From positions 1 through 26,259 of IMG/VR virus record IMGVR_UViG_3300017530_000026: 26,259 nucleotides of DNA. One strand, written 5' to 3'. The stretch comes from a virus. Positions within the stretch are counted from its first letter, which is position 1, and each line of letters begins with the position of its first letter. This document shows positions 3,543-23,003 of the stretch, piece after piece. Below the pieces are notes generated by a model, which was given only the letters and a program-made list of their open reading frames with translations, was not told the origin of the DNA and ran no database searches. A program made the position numbers and the translations under genes.

Positions 3543-3572
3543 GGGTTGGGAAATGGTCATTGAGCTAGAGAT
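3541..3572 (+). repeat. Direct repeat copy 2 (32 bp, pairs with 3163-3194)
   Basis: Second copy of the 32-bp repeat, one mismatch from copy 1. It starts at the second base of the TGA of the preceding gene. It carries a gaggg ribosome-binding-like sequence and ATG at 3553, opening an 11-residue frame MVIELEMGKRS. It runs directly into a 20-bp tandem duplication. Confidence 0.9.
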
Positions 3573-3601
3573 GGGTAAAAGGAGCTAGAGATGGGTAAAA
3601 G
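3562..3601 (+). repeat. 20-bp perfect tandem duplication
   Basis: The unit gagctagagatgggtaaaag occurs twice back to back (3562-3581 and 3582-3601), immediately upstream of the ATG at 3607. The duplication is not a multiple of three. Without it, the short frame starting at 3553 would read MVIELEMGKRTNVQT and stop just inside the downstream gene. Confidence 0.95.
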
Positions 3602-13781: not shown

Positions 13782-14150
13782 ATGGCTTCCTTCAGAGAGT
13801 TGATGGTAGGCCCTGGCTCAGTAGCAGTTGCTTCAGCGGTTTATGGCGCCACCACCCTTACCAGTGGTCTTCTAGTCCCTCACGGAGCTTCCAAACTGGG
13901 TCTCTTCATAAACGTGACAGCCGCCTCAGGAGGCTCACCCACTCTTGATATTGATGTGGAGTGGTCATCTGATGGAGGTACCACATGGTTCGATAATGAT
14001 CCTGTGGATGAGATCTCACAACTGACAGCCATCAGCACCCTTGCCAAACAATTCACTGTGCTGGCTCCCGACTATCGGTTGCAGTTAGAGCTTGCTGGCA
14101 CCACTCCTAGCTTCACTGTGGTTGTAGACCATGTTGGACTGTTTGTCTAA
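13782..14150 (+). CDS. Beta-rich virion protein (122 aa)
   Basis: A small beta-sandwich-like protein: alternating strands (KLGLFINVTA, TLDIDVEWSSDGGTTWFDND, QFTVLAPDYRLQLELAG, FTVVVDHVGLFV) with few charged residues. This pattern is typical of phage structural accessory proteins with jelly-roll or Ig-like folds. The gene at 16315-16677 encodes a protein of the same size and style, possibly a distant paralog. The stop codon lies within the first copy of a 21-bp tandem repeat. Confidence 0.6.
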   Translation: MASFRELMVGPGSVAVASAVYGATTLTSGLLVPHGASKLGLFINVTAASGGSPTLDIDVEWSSDGGTTWFDNDPVDEISQLTAISTLAKQFTVLAPDYRLQLELAGTTPSFTVVVDHVGLFV

Positions 14151-14184
14151 GTTGGCTCCATAATTTGTCTAAGTTGGCTCCATA
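14142..14184 (+). repeat. 21-bp tandem repeat with 1-nt spacer
   Basis: The sequence beginning tttgtctaagttggctccat is present at 14142-14162 and again, identical, at 14164-14184. The first copy holds the last codons and stop of the beta-rich gene; the second fills the space before the next start. It looks like a recent slippage duplication of a gene end. Confidence 0.95.
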
Positions 14185-14194
14185 GGCTGGTTCT

Positions 14195-14530
14195 ATGTAC
14201 GAGTACAAAGCCTGGGTGGTGTCTATCTATGACGCCGATACCATCCGCTTTGACATAGACCTCGGCTTCAACCAGCGGATGATGAACCAGTCGATCCGCC
14301 TCTCTGGGATCAACGCCTGGGAGGTTCGAGGTGAGCAAAGGATGCTGGGGATCACCGCCCGAGACGCTGTCCGAGAGCTACTACCCAAAGGCTCTCCAGT
14401 CCTTCTCCGCACCTTCAAGGACAAGAAGGGCAAGTATGGGAGGTGGATAGGAACTATCATCCTTCCTGATGGGACCAACCTGAATGAGTGGTTGGTCGAA
14501 GCCGGACACGCCATAGAGGTTGAATACTGA
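14195..14530 (+). CDS. Staphylococcal-nuclease-like (SNase) protein
   Basis: An SNase/TNase-fold nuclease of 111 residues. The pattern VVSIYDADTIRFD (8-20), then I34-R35-L-S-G-I-N40-A41-W-E43, then K-G-K-Y-G-R83, lines up with SNase residues D21, R35, D40, T41, E43 and R87. R35, E43 and the late Arg are kept. D40 is Asn and T41 is Ala; T41A is common in distant homologs, whereas D40N removes a calcium ligand and may weaken activity. The protein has no signal peptide. Its place among virion genes is unusual; it could degrade host DNA or be a structural SNase-fold protein. Confidence 0.75.
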   Translation: MYEYKAWVVSIYDADTIRFDIDLGFNQRMMNQSIRLSGINAWEVRGEQRMLGITARDAVRELLPKGSPVLLRTFKDKKGKYGRWIGTIILPDGTNLNEWLVEAGHAIEVEY

Positions 14531-15427: not shown

Positions 15428-15850
15428 ATGGCTGATGCCTATTACAACGATGCTCCAAACGCCTTCCTAGGCAACGGAGTTCAAGGTGCTATCGACCTGG
15501 ACACTGACGACATTCGGATGATCCTCTACGACGAGGGAGCTGATGCTCTGGACTTGGCCAACACGGTCATCTCCGACATCCTGGCTGGTGCCAGAATCGC
15601 CTCGTCCGCCAACCTAGCCTCCAAGACAGTGGGTACGGTTGCGGCTGGGATCTTCGACCATGCCGACTACGTCTTCACCTCAGTATCGGGCGCCTCGGTG
15701 GAGTCGCTCACCTACTGGAAGTTCAATGCCACGGAGACCATTGCTCCGCTGATAATGAACCTCGACTCGTGGACTGGCCTGCCGGTCACTCCCAACGGAG
15801 GCGACATCACGGCAGCTCCGGCAGCCGGTGGTGTACTCGACATCTCCTAG
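15428..15850 (+). CDS. Phage structural protein, head-fiber-like (140 aa)
   Basis: The pattern (AYYNDAPNAFLGNG then IDLDTDDIRMILYDEGAD, ILAGARIASSANLASKTVG, GIFDHADYVFTSVSGASVESL, GLPVTPNGGDITAAPAAGGV) matches a widespread small phage structural protein made of one beta-sandwich, often found near head or tail fiber genes. The exact virion position is not established. A ribosome-binding site (gaggagc) lies 9 nt before the ATG. A 13-bp hairpin follows the stop. Confidence 0.7.
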   Translation: MADAYYNDAPNAFLGNGVQGAIDLDTDDIRMILYDEGADALDLANTVISDILAGARIASSANLASKTVGTVAAGIFDHADYVFTSVSGASVESLTYWKFNATETIAPLIMNLDSWTGLPVTPNGGDITAAPAAGGVLDIS

Positions 15851-16680: not shown

Positions 16681-17949
16681 ATGATACGAACCAAGCCTGG
16701 GTTATCAATACTCACCCCTGAGGCTGTTGCCCCGCTCTACCGAAAGTATTGGAACAGTCTTTATGCCGCAGTTCCTCTTATGCGATCAGGACTTGTCGGG
16801 CGGTCTGGAAACCCTCTGCTGTCCTACGGTTCTGCCGATCCCGCCTCTGTGTCAATTGTCGGGACCACAGCCCAGGTTGGCGAGGTCGTCACTCCTTGGG
16901 GTCCAGGATTGGAGTGGTCTGGTACGGCCGGTGTCGGTGATGGAATCGAAATCAGCAATGCTCAGATGGAATTCTCTAATGATCCTTACCTTGGTCGCAC
17001 ACCAGGATTCACAACAGCAGTGTTATTCAAGTGGGATGGGACAACAGGAGACCAGCGGGCACTGATATCCCAGGGGGCATACCGGTTGAGAATCGCCAAC
17101 AAGGCGTCACCATCCGATATCGAGTTCGTTGGCACAGCCCTAATTACAAATACCATCACAACGGATGTTTGGTATCTGATGATCGCAACATCGACTGAAA
17201 ACCCGATTGCCTCAGCAGGCAGCACCAGCTATGTCTATCTGTTCAATGCCACCACAGGTCGTTACCTCGACGGCAATGCCACCAGCTCTTCCAATGCTGG
17301 GAATGTGGGCGAGTCCATTTTCTTTGGCGCCCATTCAACTAACGATCCAGCAGTTGGTGTGACCATTGCTGGAGGGTGGTGCTGGAGTAGACACTTCGGA
17401 ATGTTGTCAGGATTTGCTCCTCACGAGGCCCGAGGCATGGAAGCTTTTATCGAAGATCCGTTCGGGATGTTCCGTCCAAACCTATCTCCCTTCTTCCCAG
17501 CATCCATTAGTGGGGTCACTGTCACCCTCTACGCCACTGCTGATGGCACTCTTACCAATGTCGTTGATGAGATCGACACCACCATCGACCTCTACCAATC
17601 AGTAGATGATGATCCTGCCACTCCCACTGATGCTGACTGGGTCAACAACACTTCCCTCACCGCCTCCACCTTCTTTCTCCTTACCGACATGCCATCCCTT
17701 TTCGACACCGCTACCTCGGCCACTATCATTGTGCGCTACCGAGGCCAAAACTGGTCCGGCGCCTCCCTCACTCTCTACGCCCAGCTTTTCCAATCCGACG
17801 AGTCCACCACCCTGTCTGATGAGATCACGGTCGCTACTGTGTCGGGCAATGGAGCTTTCGCTAACACCTCCTCGATCACTTTCACCAACCTGTCCGCAGG
17901 CTCCAAGACGATATGGGATGGTGCACGCATACGCTTCCGTTGGGCCTAG
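16681..17949 (+). CDS. LamG-like virion surface protein (422 aa)
   Basis: Residues about 75-245 look like a concanavalin/LamG domain: GLEWSGTAGVGDGIEI, GFTTAVLFKWDG, a middle with VWYLMIATS, and GGWCWSRHFGMLSGFAPHEA, then DPFGMFRP at 259-266. That D-P-x-x-x-F-x-P ending is typical of phage LamG proteins. A second beta domain follows (about 275-422), rich in Ser/Thr/Asp. LamG domains often bind sugars, so a host-surface or capsid-surface binding role is likely but inferred. It starts 4 nt after the previous stop, without an obvious ribosome-binding site. Confidence 0.7.
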   Translation: MIRTKPGLSILTPEAVAPLYRKYWNSLYAAVPLMRSGLVGRSGNPLLSYGSADPASVSIVGTTAQVGEVVTPWGPGLEWSGTAGVGDGIEISNAQMEFSNDPYLGRTPGFTTAVLFKWDGTTGDQRALISQGAYRLRIANKASPSDIEFVGTALITNTITTDVWYLMIATSTENPIASAGSTSYVYLFNATTGRYLDGNATSSSNAGNVGESIFFGAHSTNDPAVGVTIAGGWCWSRHFGMLSGFAPHEARGMEAFIEDPFGMFRPNLSPFFPASISGVTVTLYATADGTLTNVVDEIDTTIDLYQSVDDDPATPTDADWVNNTSLTASTFFLLTDMPSLFDTATSATIIVRYRGQNWSGASLTLYAQLFQSDESTTLSDEITVATVSGNGAFANTSSITFTNLSAGSKTIWDGARIRFRWA

Positions 17950-17979: not shown

Positions 17980-20900
17980 ATGGCAACTCACGGACGCTGG
18001 ACAGGTGGCGCCAAGAGTCAAGGCAACCTACCCGAAGCGTGGGCGGCTCCCGCCAGCCTCTTCGATGTTCAGGCTCGCAACGACGGATCGGCTTACAGCT
18101 TCGCAGCGGCAACATCCATTCTCACACTGCCGTCATCTGGTCTAGCTGATGGCTATCTACTGGTTGGCCGATACGAATACCTCGACACTTCCAATGGACG
18201 ATTCAACCCTCAAGGGAAAATCATCCAGGCATCAGGGACCGGCACCTTTGTCGGATCTCCCTCAGGGGGCTACAGCCGGAACAACAACAACGATCAGGCG
18301 TTCGTCCAATGCTGGGCATTTGTTGACAACCCGTCAGCATCCGCCACCTTCCAATTCCAATGGAAGGCTGATACTGACGATGCGCTGGGAGGGACTTCAC
18401 TGTCCTCTTTCGATGTTATCCCTCTCTTCTACTCGAACCACGGGATCTATACATCAACATCCAGCAGCCTGTATGGAGGAGTCACACCGAACCAAGTAAC
18501 TGGATGGACAGTGTCGGCGGAAAGCGACACAGCAGCCATCCAGATCGCTACCAATGTGGTGACGGTCAAAGGGAACAACACACGATACCTGCTATTCGGA
18601 TCTCAATTCTATGAAGGACGAGGAGGGAGAACCCAACGGTGGATGGGGTTCGATTACGACGGCACCAAAGATGATGCTGCAAAAGCCTACGCCTACTACC
18701 GCCAGGGCAGCGTTGATGAGGTAGGCAACACCTTCCACGATCTGATCGAGACGGTCACAGCCGACCGGACGGTTGAGCAGTTCTGTTATCGGGGAGATGG
18801 GATCTCTAACAACCAGGGTGGGGCCGATGTTGACGGGACTACTCCTGTTGTTGGGGATCATGCGATGGTTGTCCTTGAGCTGAATAGCACCGCCGAAGTG
18901 TTCAGGACCAAGGATGCGACTGGGGTGCAGAACCTCGATGTTGGTTCAGGCACACCAGTTGACCTGACTGTTACCCGCACGACTGACATTGACTTCAACG
19001 ATGCCGCCTCATTCACGAGAGCGACCGATGTGGGGATGAATGTCGAGCAGGCAATGGACGCTCTTGCCGGAGCCAATGTGTCGGCTGCTAGCCGGACCGT
19101 ATCCAGCGGGACTCGATACACGGGACGCTCCAACATCACTATCAACGGGGTCGAAGACGCCAACGTTTTCCACGGCAACTACATGAGACAGAACCAGGGG
19201 AGTATCGACACGTTCGGCTGGTCGGCCAACCCACTCGGTTATGTGGCTGTGGTCTTGAACGATGATATTGGAGTGTCGGCCGGTCAGGACGGCGATGGGG
19301 GTGATGCCACAACTCAGGCTGGATGGGTTGGTCTGTGGGGCCTCAACCTGGACACACTGGCAGCGGCAACCGGACAGACCCTCTCTGGTGTCCTGTTCTC
19401 CAGACCACCAAGCTTCATCTCTGGTGCAATCACCACTGCCTACACCATTACGGGCGTCCTGTTCTCAAGGCCACCTGCCTTCATCACCGGGATCGTCACC
19501 CCCACCTACACCATTGACGGTGTTCTGTTCTCAAGGCCCCCAACATTTATAGCTGGGACGGTCACTGCTGCTCAGTCCGTCAATGGTGTCTTGTTCTCTA
19601 GGCCCCCAATATTCATCACAGGCACAGTCACTCTCACCAAGGAAGTCCAATTCTCTGGCTTCGCCATCACCATGTCCTATGTGGAGACGGCTGGGCTGAC
19701 TCTCACTGGTGTTCTTTTCTCCAGGCCTCCCACATTCATTGCTGGCAACGTCACTACTGCCTACACCATTACTGGGACAGTATTCGGCCGACCTCCCAGC
19801 TTCATCTCGGGTGCTATCACCACTACATACACCATTTCAGGTGTTCTCTTCTTGCGTCCGCCCACGTTTATAACTGGAGTCACCACTGCTGCTTATCAAC
19901 TAACCGGCATCCTCTTCTCCAGGCCTCCCAGCTTTATCACTGGTGTGGTCACCCCAGGCGGAGTCTCCCTTGATGGAGTGCTATTCGCCAGACCCCCCAC
20001 ATTCATCTCAGGTTCCGTCACCACCGCTTACACCCTGACCGGTATCACCTTCTCAAGACCTCCCACGTTTGTAGTGGGCACCATCACGACCAGCAACACA
20101 ATCTCGGGCATAGTCTTTGCGAAGACTCCGGCATTCGTTTCTGGAACAGTGGTTGCCAGCTACAACATCGTAGGCAACCTGTTTGCCCGTCCTCCGACTT
20201 TCGTTGCGACTGGTTCAGTTACCTCTGCCTACACGATCACTGGTGTTGTCTTTGCGACAGCACCAGTGTTCGTGTCAGGAACAATCATCCCGGCCCAGTT
20301 TGTCAATGGTGTCCTCTTCTCTCGTCCACCGACATTCATTGCTGGTGTTGTCTCATCAAATATCACTCTCACTGGAAGCTTGTTCTCCAGACCACCAAGC
20401 TTCATCTCTGGTGTGGTCTCCACTGCCTACACCCTCTCAGGTGTTCTCTTCTCCCGGCCTCCCTCGTTCATTTCTGGTGATATCCGCAAGATCCTTGGTG
20501 GAGTCCTATTCAGCCGCCCACCCTCATTCATCTCGGGCGTCATCTCTACTACCTACACCATCACTGGTGTTATCTTTGCCCGACCCCCCACGTTCATTTC
20601 AGGAACAGTCGGCCAGATCCTCGTTGGAGTGCTGTTCTCTCGTCCACCGACATTCATTGCTGGTGTTGTCACCCCTGGTGGAGTAACCCTCACCGGGGTC
20701 CTCTTCGCTCAACCCCCATCGTTCATCTCTGGCCAGGTCAATCAGACAGTCATCTCAGGTGGGCCACTGAATGCTCCACCCACATTCATCACTGGAACAG
20801 TCCTTGCTGGAGGAGTGACTCTCGATGGTGTGCTGTTCTCCAGACCACCCAGCTTTATCACAGGTCAGATCAATCTGACCCTTCTCGGAGTGTTATTCTC

Positions 20901-22266
20901 TCGCCCGCCGACCTTCATCTCCGGCACGGTCACTACCCAATACACCCTCGCCGGAACCCTCTTCACACGCCCACCCACTTTCATCAGTGGTCAGATCAAC
21001 CTCACCATCCTGGGGGTTCTGTTCTCCCGGCCACCGACATTCATCTCTGGTGTTATCACTCCCGGTGGAATCACGGTCTTCGGTGTTCTGTTCAGCCGCC
21101 CACCCACTTTCATCAGTGGTCAGATCAACCTCACTGTCATTTCTGGTGGCCCACTCAACACCCCGCCAACATTCATCTCAGGCGTTATCACTCCCACTTT
21201 CACCATCAGCGGAGTTCTCTTCTCTAGGCCTCCCTCATTCATTTCTGGTGTTGTCAGCTCGAACTACACCCTCACTGGGACTCTATTCAGCCGCCCACCC
21301 ACCTTCATCGCCGGGGTCATCACCACTCAGAACACTCTCAGTGGAACCCTCTTCTCTCGCCCACCCACATTCCTAGCTGGACGCCTTGACCTCACCATCT
21401 TTGGTGTCACCTTCCTACGTCCCCCAAGCTTCATCTCTGGTGTGGTCACTCTGGGCGGGGTCACTCTCTCCGGTGTTCTGTTCAGTCAGCCTCCCAGTTT
21501 CATCACAGGGGTTGTCACTCCTGGTGGAGTCACTCTTGCTGGCTCACTCTTTGCTCGCCCACCCACATTCATCACAGGTGTTGTCAGTACCACCTACACA
21601 CTGACCGGCTCTCTATTCAGCCGCCCACCCTCATTCATCACAGGGGTTATCACTCCCACCTACACGATCTCAGGAGTGGTGTTTGCTCAGCCACCAAGCT
21701 TTATCGCTGGTGTCATCTCTCAGATATCAAGTCCACAGACTCTTTCTGGTGTGCTGTTCAGTAGACCTCCAAGCTTCATCTCAGGACGACTCGATCTCAC
21801 CATTTTCGGTGTGGTCTTCACGCGCCCGCCTACCTTCATTACAGGTCAGGTCCTTGCAGGTGGAGTCACCCTATCGGGCGTTCTCTTCAGCCGTCCTCCC
21901 AATTTCATTGCTGGACGACTCGACCTCAGGATCTTCGCCCCTGCCACTTTCCTCCGTCCACCTAGCTTCATCAGTGGAACCCTCACCACCACGGTTGGTC
22001 TCACCGGAGTTCTATTTGCTCGTCCTCCCACGTTCATCCCAGGAGACCTGTTCTTCCAATTCCAGTTCCTCCTCGGTGTCGTATCCCTCAGGCCTCCCAC
22101 CTTCATCACAGGGACCCTTACTGTTGAAGTGTTCTTACCCCCAGAAGGAGGGCGTGAGTTCTCCCCCACGGATCGAACATATGAGGGGGATCGTTCCCTC
22201 AACGGCGCCTCACGGAGCTACTCTGGAGACCGGACATATAGCAACAGGAGCAGAAGTGGTCCTTAA
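17980..22266 (+). CDS. Giant repeat protein, 41 RPP(T/S)FI(S/T/A)G units (1428 aa)
   Basis: The largest gene in the window. Residues 1-468 form a beta-rich globular region (Gly/Ser/Thr/Asn-rich, jelly-roll-like). Residues 469-1384 are 41 tandem units of mostly 20-23 residues with core GVLFSRPPTFISG followed by a variable linker (ITTAYTI, VTPGGVTL, QINLTI or RLDLTI types). The final 44 residues are basic and Tyr/Arg/Ser-rich (DRTYEGDRS, SGDRTYSNRSRS). No signal peptide or hydrophobic anchor. Position among virion proteins suggests a fiber, capsid-surface or adhesion protein. I do not recognise a named family. Codons vary between units, so the repeats are old, with a few recent duplications. 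The start is ATG at 17980 with a weak aaggatgag upstream. Confidence 0.8.
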   Translation: MATHGRWTGGAKSQGNLPEAWAAPASLFDVQARNDGSAYSFAAATSILTLPSSGLADGYLLVGRYEYLDTSNGRFNPQGKIIQASGTGTFVGSPSGGYSRNNNNDQAFVQCWAFVDNPSASATFQFQWKADTDDALGGTSLSSFDVIPLFYSNHGIYTSTSSSLYGGVTPNQVTGWTVSAESDTAAIQIATNVVTVKGNNTRYLLFGSQFYEGRGGRTQRWMGFDYDGTKDDAAKAYAYYRQGSVDEVGNTFHDLIETVTADRTVEQFCYRGDGISNNQGGADVDGTTPVVGDHAMVVLELNSTAEVFRTKDATGVQNLDVGSGTPVDLTVTRTTDIDFNDAASFTRATDVGMNVEQAMDALAGANVSAASRTVSSGTRYTGRSNITINGVEDANVFHGNYMRQNQGSIDTFGWSANPLGYVAVVLNDDIGVSAGQDGDGGDATTQAGWVGLWGLNLDTLAAATGQTLSGVLFSRPPSFISGAITTAYTITGVLFSRPPAFITGIVTPTYTIDGVLFSRPPTFIAGTVTAAQSVNGVLFSRPPIFITGTVTLTKEVQFSGFAITMSYVETAGLTLTGVLFSRPPTFIAGNVTTAYTITGTVFGRPPSFISGAITTTYTISGVLFLRPPTFITGVTTAAYQLTGILFSRPPSFITGVVTPGGVSLDGVLFARPPTFISGSVTTAYTLTGITFSRPPTFVVGTITTSNTISGIVFAKTPAFVSGTVVASYNIVGNLFARPPTFVATGSVTSAYTITGVVFATAPVFVSGTIIPAQFVNGVLFSRPPTFIAGVVSSNITLTGSLFSRPPSFISGVVSTAYTLSGVLFSRPPSFISGDIRKILGGVLFSRPPSFISGVISTTYTITGVIFARPPTFISGTVGQILVGVLFSRPPTFIAGVVTPGGVTLTGVLFAQPPSFISGQVNQTVISGGPLNAPPTFITGTVLAGGVTLDGVLFSRPPSFITGQINLTLLGVLFSRPPTFISGTVTTQYTLAGTLFTRPPTFISGQINLTILGVLFSRPPTFISGVITPGGITVFGVLFSRPPTFISGQINLTVISGGPLNTPPTFISGVITPTFTISGVLFSRPPSFISGVVSSNYTLTGTLFSRPPTFIAGVITTQNTLSGTLFSRPPTFLAGRLDLTIFGVTFLRPPSFISGVVTLGGVTLSGVLFSQPPSFITGVVTPGGVTLAGSLFARPPTFITGVVSTTYTLTGSLFSRPPSFITGVITPTYTISGVVFAQPPSFIAGVISQISSPQTLSGVLFSRPPSFISGRLDLTIFGVVFTRPPTFITGQVLAGGVTLSGVLFSRPPNFIAGRLDLRIFAPATFLRPPSFISGTLTTTVGLTGVLFARPPTFIPGDLFFQFQFLLGVVSLRPPTFITGTLTVEVFLPPEGGREFSPTDRTYEGDRSLNGASRSYSGDRTYSNRSRSGP
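19384..22131 (+). repeat. Protein-coding tandem repeat array (41 units, mostly 60-69 nt)
   Basis: In-frame tandem repeats encoding the GVLFSRPPTFISG-type unit. One unit (near 19630-19710) has a degenerate 19-residue extension. Units 16-27 (20437-21207) alternate strictly between a short form (20-21 residues) and a long form (22-23 residues). Units 20-21 and 26-27 share an SGGPLN(A/T)PPTFI variant, pointing to block duplication. Identical stretches of 38 bp (20968-21005 and 21097-21134) and 36 bp (20317-20352 and 20635-20670) stand out against otherwise diverged DNA. Confidence 0.95.
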
Positions 22267-22636
22267 CCCAGCGACAGTGGCCTTGATCCGAGATGAGATT
22301 GGGAACGATACTGACTTCTCAGATGACATCCCTCATGTTGCTCCACAGCTCGACTCTCTCGAAAACATCTACAACGATGCGAACAGGGGCGCCTCAAATG
22401 TGCTGCGGTCTGCCCTGATCTGTCAGAAGCGGCGGCTGATGAATTTGCAGTCCCGGTCTTTTGATGTGGTGACTGAAGGGTCGTTGCTTTCGCGCAACCA
22501 GAGGATTCGGTTCCTGGCTCGTGAGATCATCCGCCTGGAGACTCTTGTTGACACCACCCATAAGGGTGTCAATGCCAAAGTCTTGTCAAGCGTCCAGGTG
22601 CAGGAGGCAGTCGATGCTGGCTCCGAGTTCGCATAA
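22256..22636 (+). CDS. Head-tail connector candidate (126 aa)
   Basis: The chosen GTG at 22256 has aggag about 6 nt upstream and overlaps the giant gene by 11 nt; ATG at 22181 is an upstream alternative but lies deep inside that gene. The N-terminal motif TVALIRDEIGNDTDFSDDIPHV followed by a helical region (LENIYNDANRGASNVLRSALI) and RSFDVVTEGSLLSRNQRIRFL resembles small phage adaptor proteins that join portal to tail. Position at the head of the connector genes agrees. Family identity was not verified. Confidence 0.65.
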   Translation: MVLNPATVALIRDEIGNDTDFSDDIPHVAPQLDSLENIYNDANRGASNVLRSALICQKRRLMNLQSRSFDVVTEGSLLSRNQRIRFLAREIIRLETLVDTTHKGVNAKVLSSVQVQEAVDAGSEFA

Positions 22637-23003
22637 GCTCGACAAACAGGATGTGATCGAGTCCGTCCATTCTGCTGTGTATGAGATCTGGGGACACATG
22701 CAGGAGAAGGAGGAGGAGGTTGCTGGAGCTGTGTTCAAGGATGGGACTATCCACCGCTTCGACAACATCCATCCCTCACCCAAAACCCACTTCCATGTGG
22801 ATGCTTCCCAATCGGCAGGGTTGGAGAATGTGGTTGCTATCTACCACTCACACCCGAACGGGAACGAGCTGATCTCCGTCACTGACATGAGAGGGTTAGC
22901 TCCAATTCCTGCCGTGATTGTCACATCCCTGGGGATCATTTTATGGTGGCCCCACTCCAAGGTTGGCTACTACCGTATCTGGGACTGGTATGGCCCTGAA
23001 TGA
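22614..23003 (+). CDS. Stand-alone JAMM/MPN-family metallopeptidase
   Basis: The exact JAMM zinc signature is present: H78-x-H80-x7-S88-x2-D91 (HSHPNGNELISVTD), with E35 (EVAGAVF) as the likely catalytic glutamate. The 129 residues contain just the MPN fold. In lambda-like phages a similar domain is fused to NlpC/P60 in the tail tip protein K; here it is free and sits between two connector genes. It could process a virion protein or a cell-wall or ubiquitin-like substrate; the substrate is unknown. The ATG at 22614 follows aggagg with a 6-nt gap and overlaps the previous gene by 23 nt. The frame is open further upstream, but the composition there does not look coding. Confidence 0.8.
   Translation: MLAPSSHKLDKQDVIESVHSAVYEIWGHMQEKEEEVAGAVFKDGTIHRFDNIHPSPKTHFHVDASQSAGLENVVAIYHSHPNGNELISVTDMRGLAPIPAVIVTSLGIILWWPHSKVGYYRIWDWYGPE

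Follow-up and report, generated by a model that had tools for sequence, protein, structure and literature searches.

An uncharacterised phage repeat protein with a predicted single-chain C1q/TNF-type head on an exchangeable, putative 41-unit stalk

What might a phage gain from a protein of 1428 residues, about two thirds of which consist of a single short motif repeated 41 times? This question is raised by a gene at positions 17980..22266 (plus strand) of IMG/VR virus record IMGVR_UViG_3300017530_000026, analysed here over its positions 1 to 26,259 (26,259 nucleotides, hereafter the window). The window is part of a tailed-phage genome, encoding a terminase, a portal protein, a major head protein, and, downstream of the array gene, a tail completion protein; the best annotated-phage matches of its terminase are those of Methanothermobacter psiM100/psiM2 (39-40%). 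With moderate confidence, we read the gene product as a virion-associated, probably tail-associated, host-adhesion protein of three exchangeable modules: an N-terminal head, the repeat array, and a short C-terminal tail.

The open reading frame (ORF) listing returns the gene with an ATG start, at exactly the coordinates and length of the initial annotation. Array units were defined by a permissive anchor motif, [PTA]P[TSAINV]F[ILV], which occurs in 41 in-register units over residues 468-1388 (19381..22143, plus strand; consensus LxGVLFSRPPTFISGxVTxxxT), or 64% of the protein. In 1000 shuffles of the 1428-residue protein, this anchor occurred 0.27 times on average and four times at most, and the strict form, RPP[TS]FI[STA]G, never. 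Self-identity is highest at lag 22 (0.31 vs. 0.13 for the 99th-percentile shuffle maximum). The tandem array proposed initially is, thus, real, although the RPP(T/S)FI(S/T/A)G core that was to define it is found in its strict form in only 27 of the 41 units; the P at +1 and the F at +3 are invariant, and the G at -6 and +6 are present in 40 of 41. Units are of 22 (21 units), 23 (nine), 20 (six), 21 (three), or 25 residues, within the 20-25 range first given, save for one 41-residue interval after unit 4 (19579..19701, plus strand), in which a 19-residue insertion (the KEVQFSGFAITMSYVETAG region) constitutes the sole large register break. The tail (residues 1389-1428; 22144..22263, plus strand), a candidate virion anchor, is rich in Tyr, Arg, and Ser (45%), but it is not basic as had been claimed: seven basic and six acidic residues leave a net charge of +1, the basic part being the array (+31, with Arg in 34 of the 41 units).

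The head, initially described as beta-rich, is so, but this description was incomplete. Its 465 residues were modelled with AlphaFold2, using an alignment of seven sequences without array rows, giving a predicted local distance difference test (pLDDT) score of 75 and a predicted template modelling (pTM) score of 0.80. Compared with solved structures using VIA-align, the model ranks five single-chain C1q/TNF trimers on top (Z 26-31.5, 358-386 residues, 3.5-3.7 Å), including the engineered APRIL-BAFF-BAFF (Z 31.5), single-chain C1q (Z 28), and adiponectin (Z 26) trimers, which align across head residues 1-463. Since the matches then fall to single domains, at Z 8.8 or lower, the head is predicted to be three linked C1q/TNF-type jelly rolls, set as a trimer in one chain. 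The first domain (residues 1-147, 17980..18420; boundaries by eye) is C1q/TNF-like in the model. The second (residues 148-302, 18421..18885) and the third (residues 303-465, 18886..19374; all three on the plus strand) each match C1q/TNF domains (Z 8-8.8), with the BclA C-terminal domain (Z 8.7) for the former, and the TNF family, the cyanophage A-1(L) short tail fibre CBD, and the phi812 spike (Z 8.4-8.8) for the latter. The first three array units, included in the head model, are unstructured (pLDDT about 33). In BFVD, the model resembles a 'C1q domain-containing' phage protein (template modelling score 0.59/0.72) and giant-virus proteins, the top match being a close relative (A0A516MN79, 990 residues, 52% identity). 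Because these phage and giant-virus proteins have similar predicted shapes, single-chain viral trimers of this kind are probably a wider type. The head is best termed C1q/TNF 'fold like', rather than a member by sequence.

Homologues of the head are found in six other contigs (L003, L004, L005, L041, L042, and L043; 41-60% identity across about 460 residues), and in each the similarity ends just ahead of the point where the array starts in the window. What follows differs: a WNGSAW motif in L003, an SPSASISAS sequence in L004, nothing in L042, and arrays of FSESAxLTGTGAL (period 20) in L005, YTGLAPxVxV (period 24) in L041, and INATHDALTLTEY (period 22) in L043, a nearly identical but incomplete copy of which is present in L044. 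Scanning with the ATHDAL array yielded two near-identical contigs only, both already known. The fusions of the head to four other repeat arrays are located at L004:6744-9467, L005:6219-8036, L041:602-2686, and L043:4683-7613; three of these four arrays share a period of 20-24 residues, despite unrelated sequences. The head contigs have no further gene in common with the window, the nuclease-like gene of L003 being the sole exception, and their portal and capsid proteins, where assignable, belong to other families. The window copy of that small gene lies at 14195-14530, and its 50% homologue directly follows the head-only gene of L003. Conversely, L006, a sister phage sharing 73% (terminase), 74% (portal), and 68% (capsid) identity with the window, combines the array and a related C-terminus with a different head; the C-terminal tail is also kept in L017. 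As judged from these comparisons, head and array move separately, because the head recurs before other stalks in unrelated phages, while L006 carries the array and C-terminus under another head. After their unrelated arrays, the C-termini encoded at L005:8500-9627 and L043:4683-7613 consist of a common charged, helical-looking domain ending in DEEAIISLL(L/M), which may be an alternative anchor.

Relatives of the array itself were gathered by pattern and profile scans. They contain 18 (L006/L032), 16 (L021), 13 (L034), or 7 (L016/L036) units, with cut arrays of 11 (L039) and 6 (L035), and truncated genes in L017/L028. In L021 (minus strand), a complete non-repeat domain is present within the array, at about residues 255-425 of a 761-residue protein. 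More distantly, arrays of PSLFTNTNTFY units (class B) were found in Pseudanabaena phage Pam2 (Pam2_68) and in 14 IMG/VR contigs. They have the same 22/23-residue unit and the pattern L-x-x-x-L-F-x-x-x-x-T-F, but with N-T-N-T-F-Y where the window has its RPP/APTF core, and with other heads. Two-unit profiles of both types align in register over 43 columns (hhalign probability 89%, E 2.3e-6), compared with 0.5% for reversed sequences and 0.02% for an unrelated 22-residue array. On profile evidence, the window repeat is a distant member of this superfamily, so that the unit does not stand alone. No characterised family was found for it, as first stated: PF23698 ('ORF29-like') reaches 39.9 bits with the whole protein only by summation over repeats (at most 18 at any one place, for a cut-off of 27), and phrog_22124 likewise reaches E 1e-9 by summation, with 13-17 of its 52 positions matched per place rather than its full length. 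We found no functional characterisation of either family. Class-B arrays match phrog_8501, a minor tail protein family, again by a score summed over repeats only. Pfam matches to the mitochondrial pyruvate carrier and others were rejected as chance matches inflated by repeats. A match in phage nd12 (24% identity) falls within a 2934-base gene that follows the one for the major tail protein and probably encodes the tape measure; it was likewise attributed to chance. More distant still is gp57 of the isolated Roseobacter phage CRP-6 (L082:4617-5885), an acidic repeat protein weakly similar to the PSLFTNTNTFY arrays and encoded a few genes away from annotated tail fibre genes.

Neither the whole protein nor the head matched any of 50,697 phage records by tblastn, and a four-unit query matched Pam2 alone. 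No array or head relative was detected in 84,980 bacterial and archaeal genomes, by a pattern seeding that can miss relatives, and, therefore, no host or prophage was found.

In the proposed mechanism, the N-terminal head would face outward as a ligand-binding tip, the beta-repeat array would serve as a stalk or spacer with a reach determined by its number of units, and the short C-terminal tail would dock on the particle as an anchor. The head is more readily seen as a binding module than as a dock, because it is replaced between the window and L006 and travels among unrelated virion types. As one chain would already provide the complete trimeric knob, a homotrimeric stalk, such as that of classical tail fibres, would not be required. 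The common function of the stalks may be spacing, without any specific stalk surface, as suggested by the SPSAS stalk, which is a simple Ser/Pro sequence. The surface-binding role first proposed for the protein is, thus, kept as the best reading, with a head now predicted to have the C1q/TNF binding fold, whereas its other suggestion, a coat on the virion, found no support in this analysis. Whether the whole constitutes a phage mix-and-match adhesin, with a natural single-chain C1q/TNF-type trimer on interchangeable, unrelated stalks of 20-24-residue units, and with head, reach, and anchor swapped independently between unrelated lineages, appears to us evenly balanced.

Several points weigh against the adhesin interpretation. 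The head has no C1q/TNF match in Pfam, its sequence profile has no match in the PDB, and mutual homology between its three domains is undetectable by sequence; as no sequence method supports a C1q/TNF head, the pseudo-trimer is a proposal of the structural model. The fold of the stalk, first suggested to be an elongated beta fibre or solenoid, comes from a weak model (pLDDT 61), the orientation on the virion is conjectural, and the virus is known from a contig alone. Finally, the array gene is located between the major capsid and neck genes, away from the tail tip, and a head-attached fibre is, therefore, possible.

This last point is the starting place of the best surviving alternative, a capsid-attached head fibre or decoration, helping the particle to stick to cells or surface polymers, which we consider unlikely. 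The same location is found in L006, and the gene upstream of the head gene in L005 matches phrog_240, a 'head protein' family. Nevertheless, the L005 protein has no detectable kinship with the phrog_644 protein of its sister phage L043, and the constant neighbour of the array gene points elsewhere. This neighbour, encoded at 15428..15850 (plus strand) in the window, belongs to phrog_644; its counterparts in L006, L021, L034, L035, and L036 are 51-71% identical, and it precedes the array gene in all five array relatives with upstream sequence, as well as in Pam2 (Pam2_64). In two Mycobacterium phages, MaryV and McProf, the gene of this family comes directly after the minor tail protein block. 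Together with the summed match of class-B arrays to a minor-tail PHROG, this favours an association of the putative adhesion protein with the tail.

A second alternative, which we regard as improbable, is that the array itself is active, either as a beta-solenoid binding polyanionic surface polymers by spaced Arg, or as an ice- or glycan-binding ladder, with the head as an assembly cap. The charge of the array and the distribution of its Arg would suit such a function, and the AlphaFold2 model of the array is all-beta and solenoid-like, its resemblance to beta-solenoids extending to CsgA, HMW1, and an antifreeze protein (Z about 15, at its pLDDT of 61). However, AlphaFold2 often gives repeat sequences artefactual, unrealistic solenoids (PMC11795689), and this likeness is, therefore, not trusted. 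A BFVD search with the array model gave no match at E <= 0.001. Moreover, charge is not conserved, related arrays varying between +4.5 and -5.2 per 100 residues, and Arg-mediated polyanion binding was, therefore, ruled out as a family-wide function; elsewhere, the head is found on unrelated arrays.

Codon usage indicates whether the array, as the putative stalk of an adhesin, is maintained as protein or as DNA. Identity between unit pairs is 0.67 at codon position 1, 0.81 at position 2, and 0.38 at position 3. Where two units have the same residue, their codons agree at a rate of 0.40, compared with 0.38-0.39 expected from the array's own usage, and this rate is at chance even for neighbouring units; Arg is encoded by both CGN and AGR, and Ser by both TCN and AGY. 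Codons are likewise randomised in the L006, L034, L035, and L036 arrays, L021 alone having a clear excess of shared codons, which suggests some duplication of recent date. By these measures, the window array is neither a recent slippage product nor a recent DNA repeat. Because synonymous sites have reached saturation whereas P, F, and G hardly vary, it would be old and selected as protein, unless sameness of codons is itself disfavoured by selection; in either case, slippage of recent date does not account for it. On sequence evidence, the 41 units are a protein repeat under purifying selection. A low-complexity repeat grown by replication slippage and merely tolerated, without a specific role, would explain why relatives differ so strongly in unit number (41, 18, 16, 13, 7) and why L021 shares codons in excess, but it is very hard to reconcile with codons that are random even in neighbouring units, which implies no recent expansion, and with almost invariant P, F, and G positions.

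Other features of the window are of lesser relevance to this gene. Between the phrog_644 gene and the array gene, a 422-residue protein (16681..17949, plus strand), LamG-like according to the initial annotation, has no family match and is missing from L006. Downstream of the array gene, in the relatives too, is a JAB/MPN-type protein (22521..23003, plus strand) with tail-protein PHROG matches. Within an ORF listed from TTG 21683, 121 codons at about 22270-22636, probably its last ones, are conserved with L006 (64%) and L028 (60%); as judged from this conservation, the true gene start is probably just past the array gene. Perfect short tandem duplications are present at gene boundaries, at 3562-3601 (20 bp x2) and 14142-14184 (22 bp x2). 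Scanning the window for Rfam families and tRNA genes gave no matches.

Taken together, these results describe a probable phage adhesion protein that combines an uncharacterised repeat class with a predicted natural single-chain C1q/TNF trimer, and that is real, selected, and modular. Large 'hypothetical' repeat proteins of environmental phages thereby gain names and signatures. As the same head is found on at least five stalk types (window, SPSAS, FSESA, YTGLAP, and ATHDAL), stalk function becomes directly testable, as that which survives full sequence replacement. The swapping of heads and stalks also suggests a way in which phages may rebuild their host-contacting parts.

The C1q/TNF fold serves binding both in other phages and in C1q/TNF proteins. 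The closest structural counterparts of the head are the C1q/TNF trimers, together with the single-chain versions engineered from them (4zch, 5hkj, 5hzf, and 4dou), which share its predicted fold and three-domain arrangement (Z 26-31.5), but the phage head is one natural chain rather than three, and no sequence similarity was detected. Single-chain trimers have been engineered for use in biotechnology, and a natural counterpart mounted on a monomeric repeat stalk would be an unusual adhesin design. Bacillus BclA/ExsF and the F-ENA tip fibrillum also present a C1q/TNF-like knob (Z 7.9-8.8), displayed on a repeat stalk, but as homotrimers with a collagen-like stalk, and on spores instead of phages. 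Among phages, the C1q-like receptor-binding proteins (the A-1(L) short tail fibre CBD, 8ke9; cyanophage A4, 9k09; and TM4 gp23, 9n6a) have a jelly-roll knob, proposed or shown to act in host recognition; to our knowledge, none carries three such domains fused together on a repeat stalk of a single chain. C1q-like genes belong to the variable host-recognition genes of phages, in variable islands (PMC7468147).

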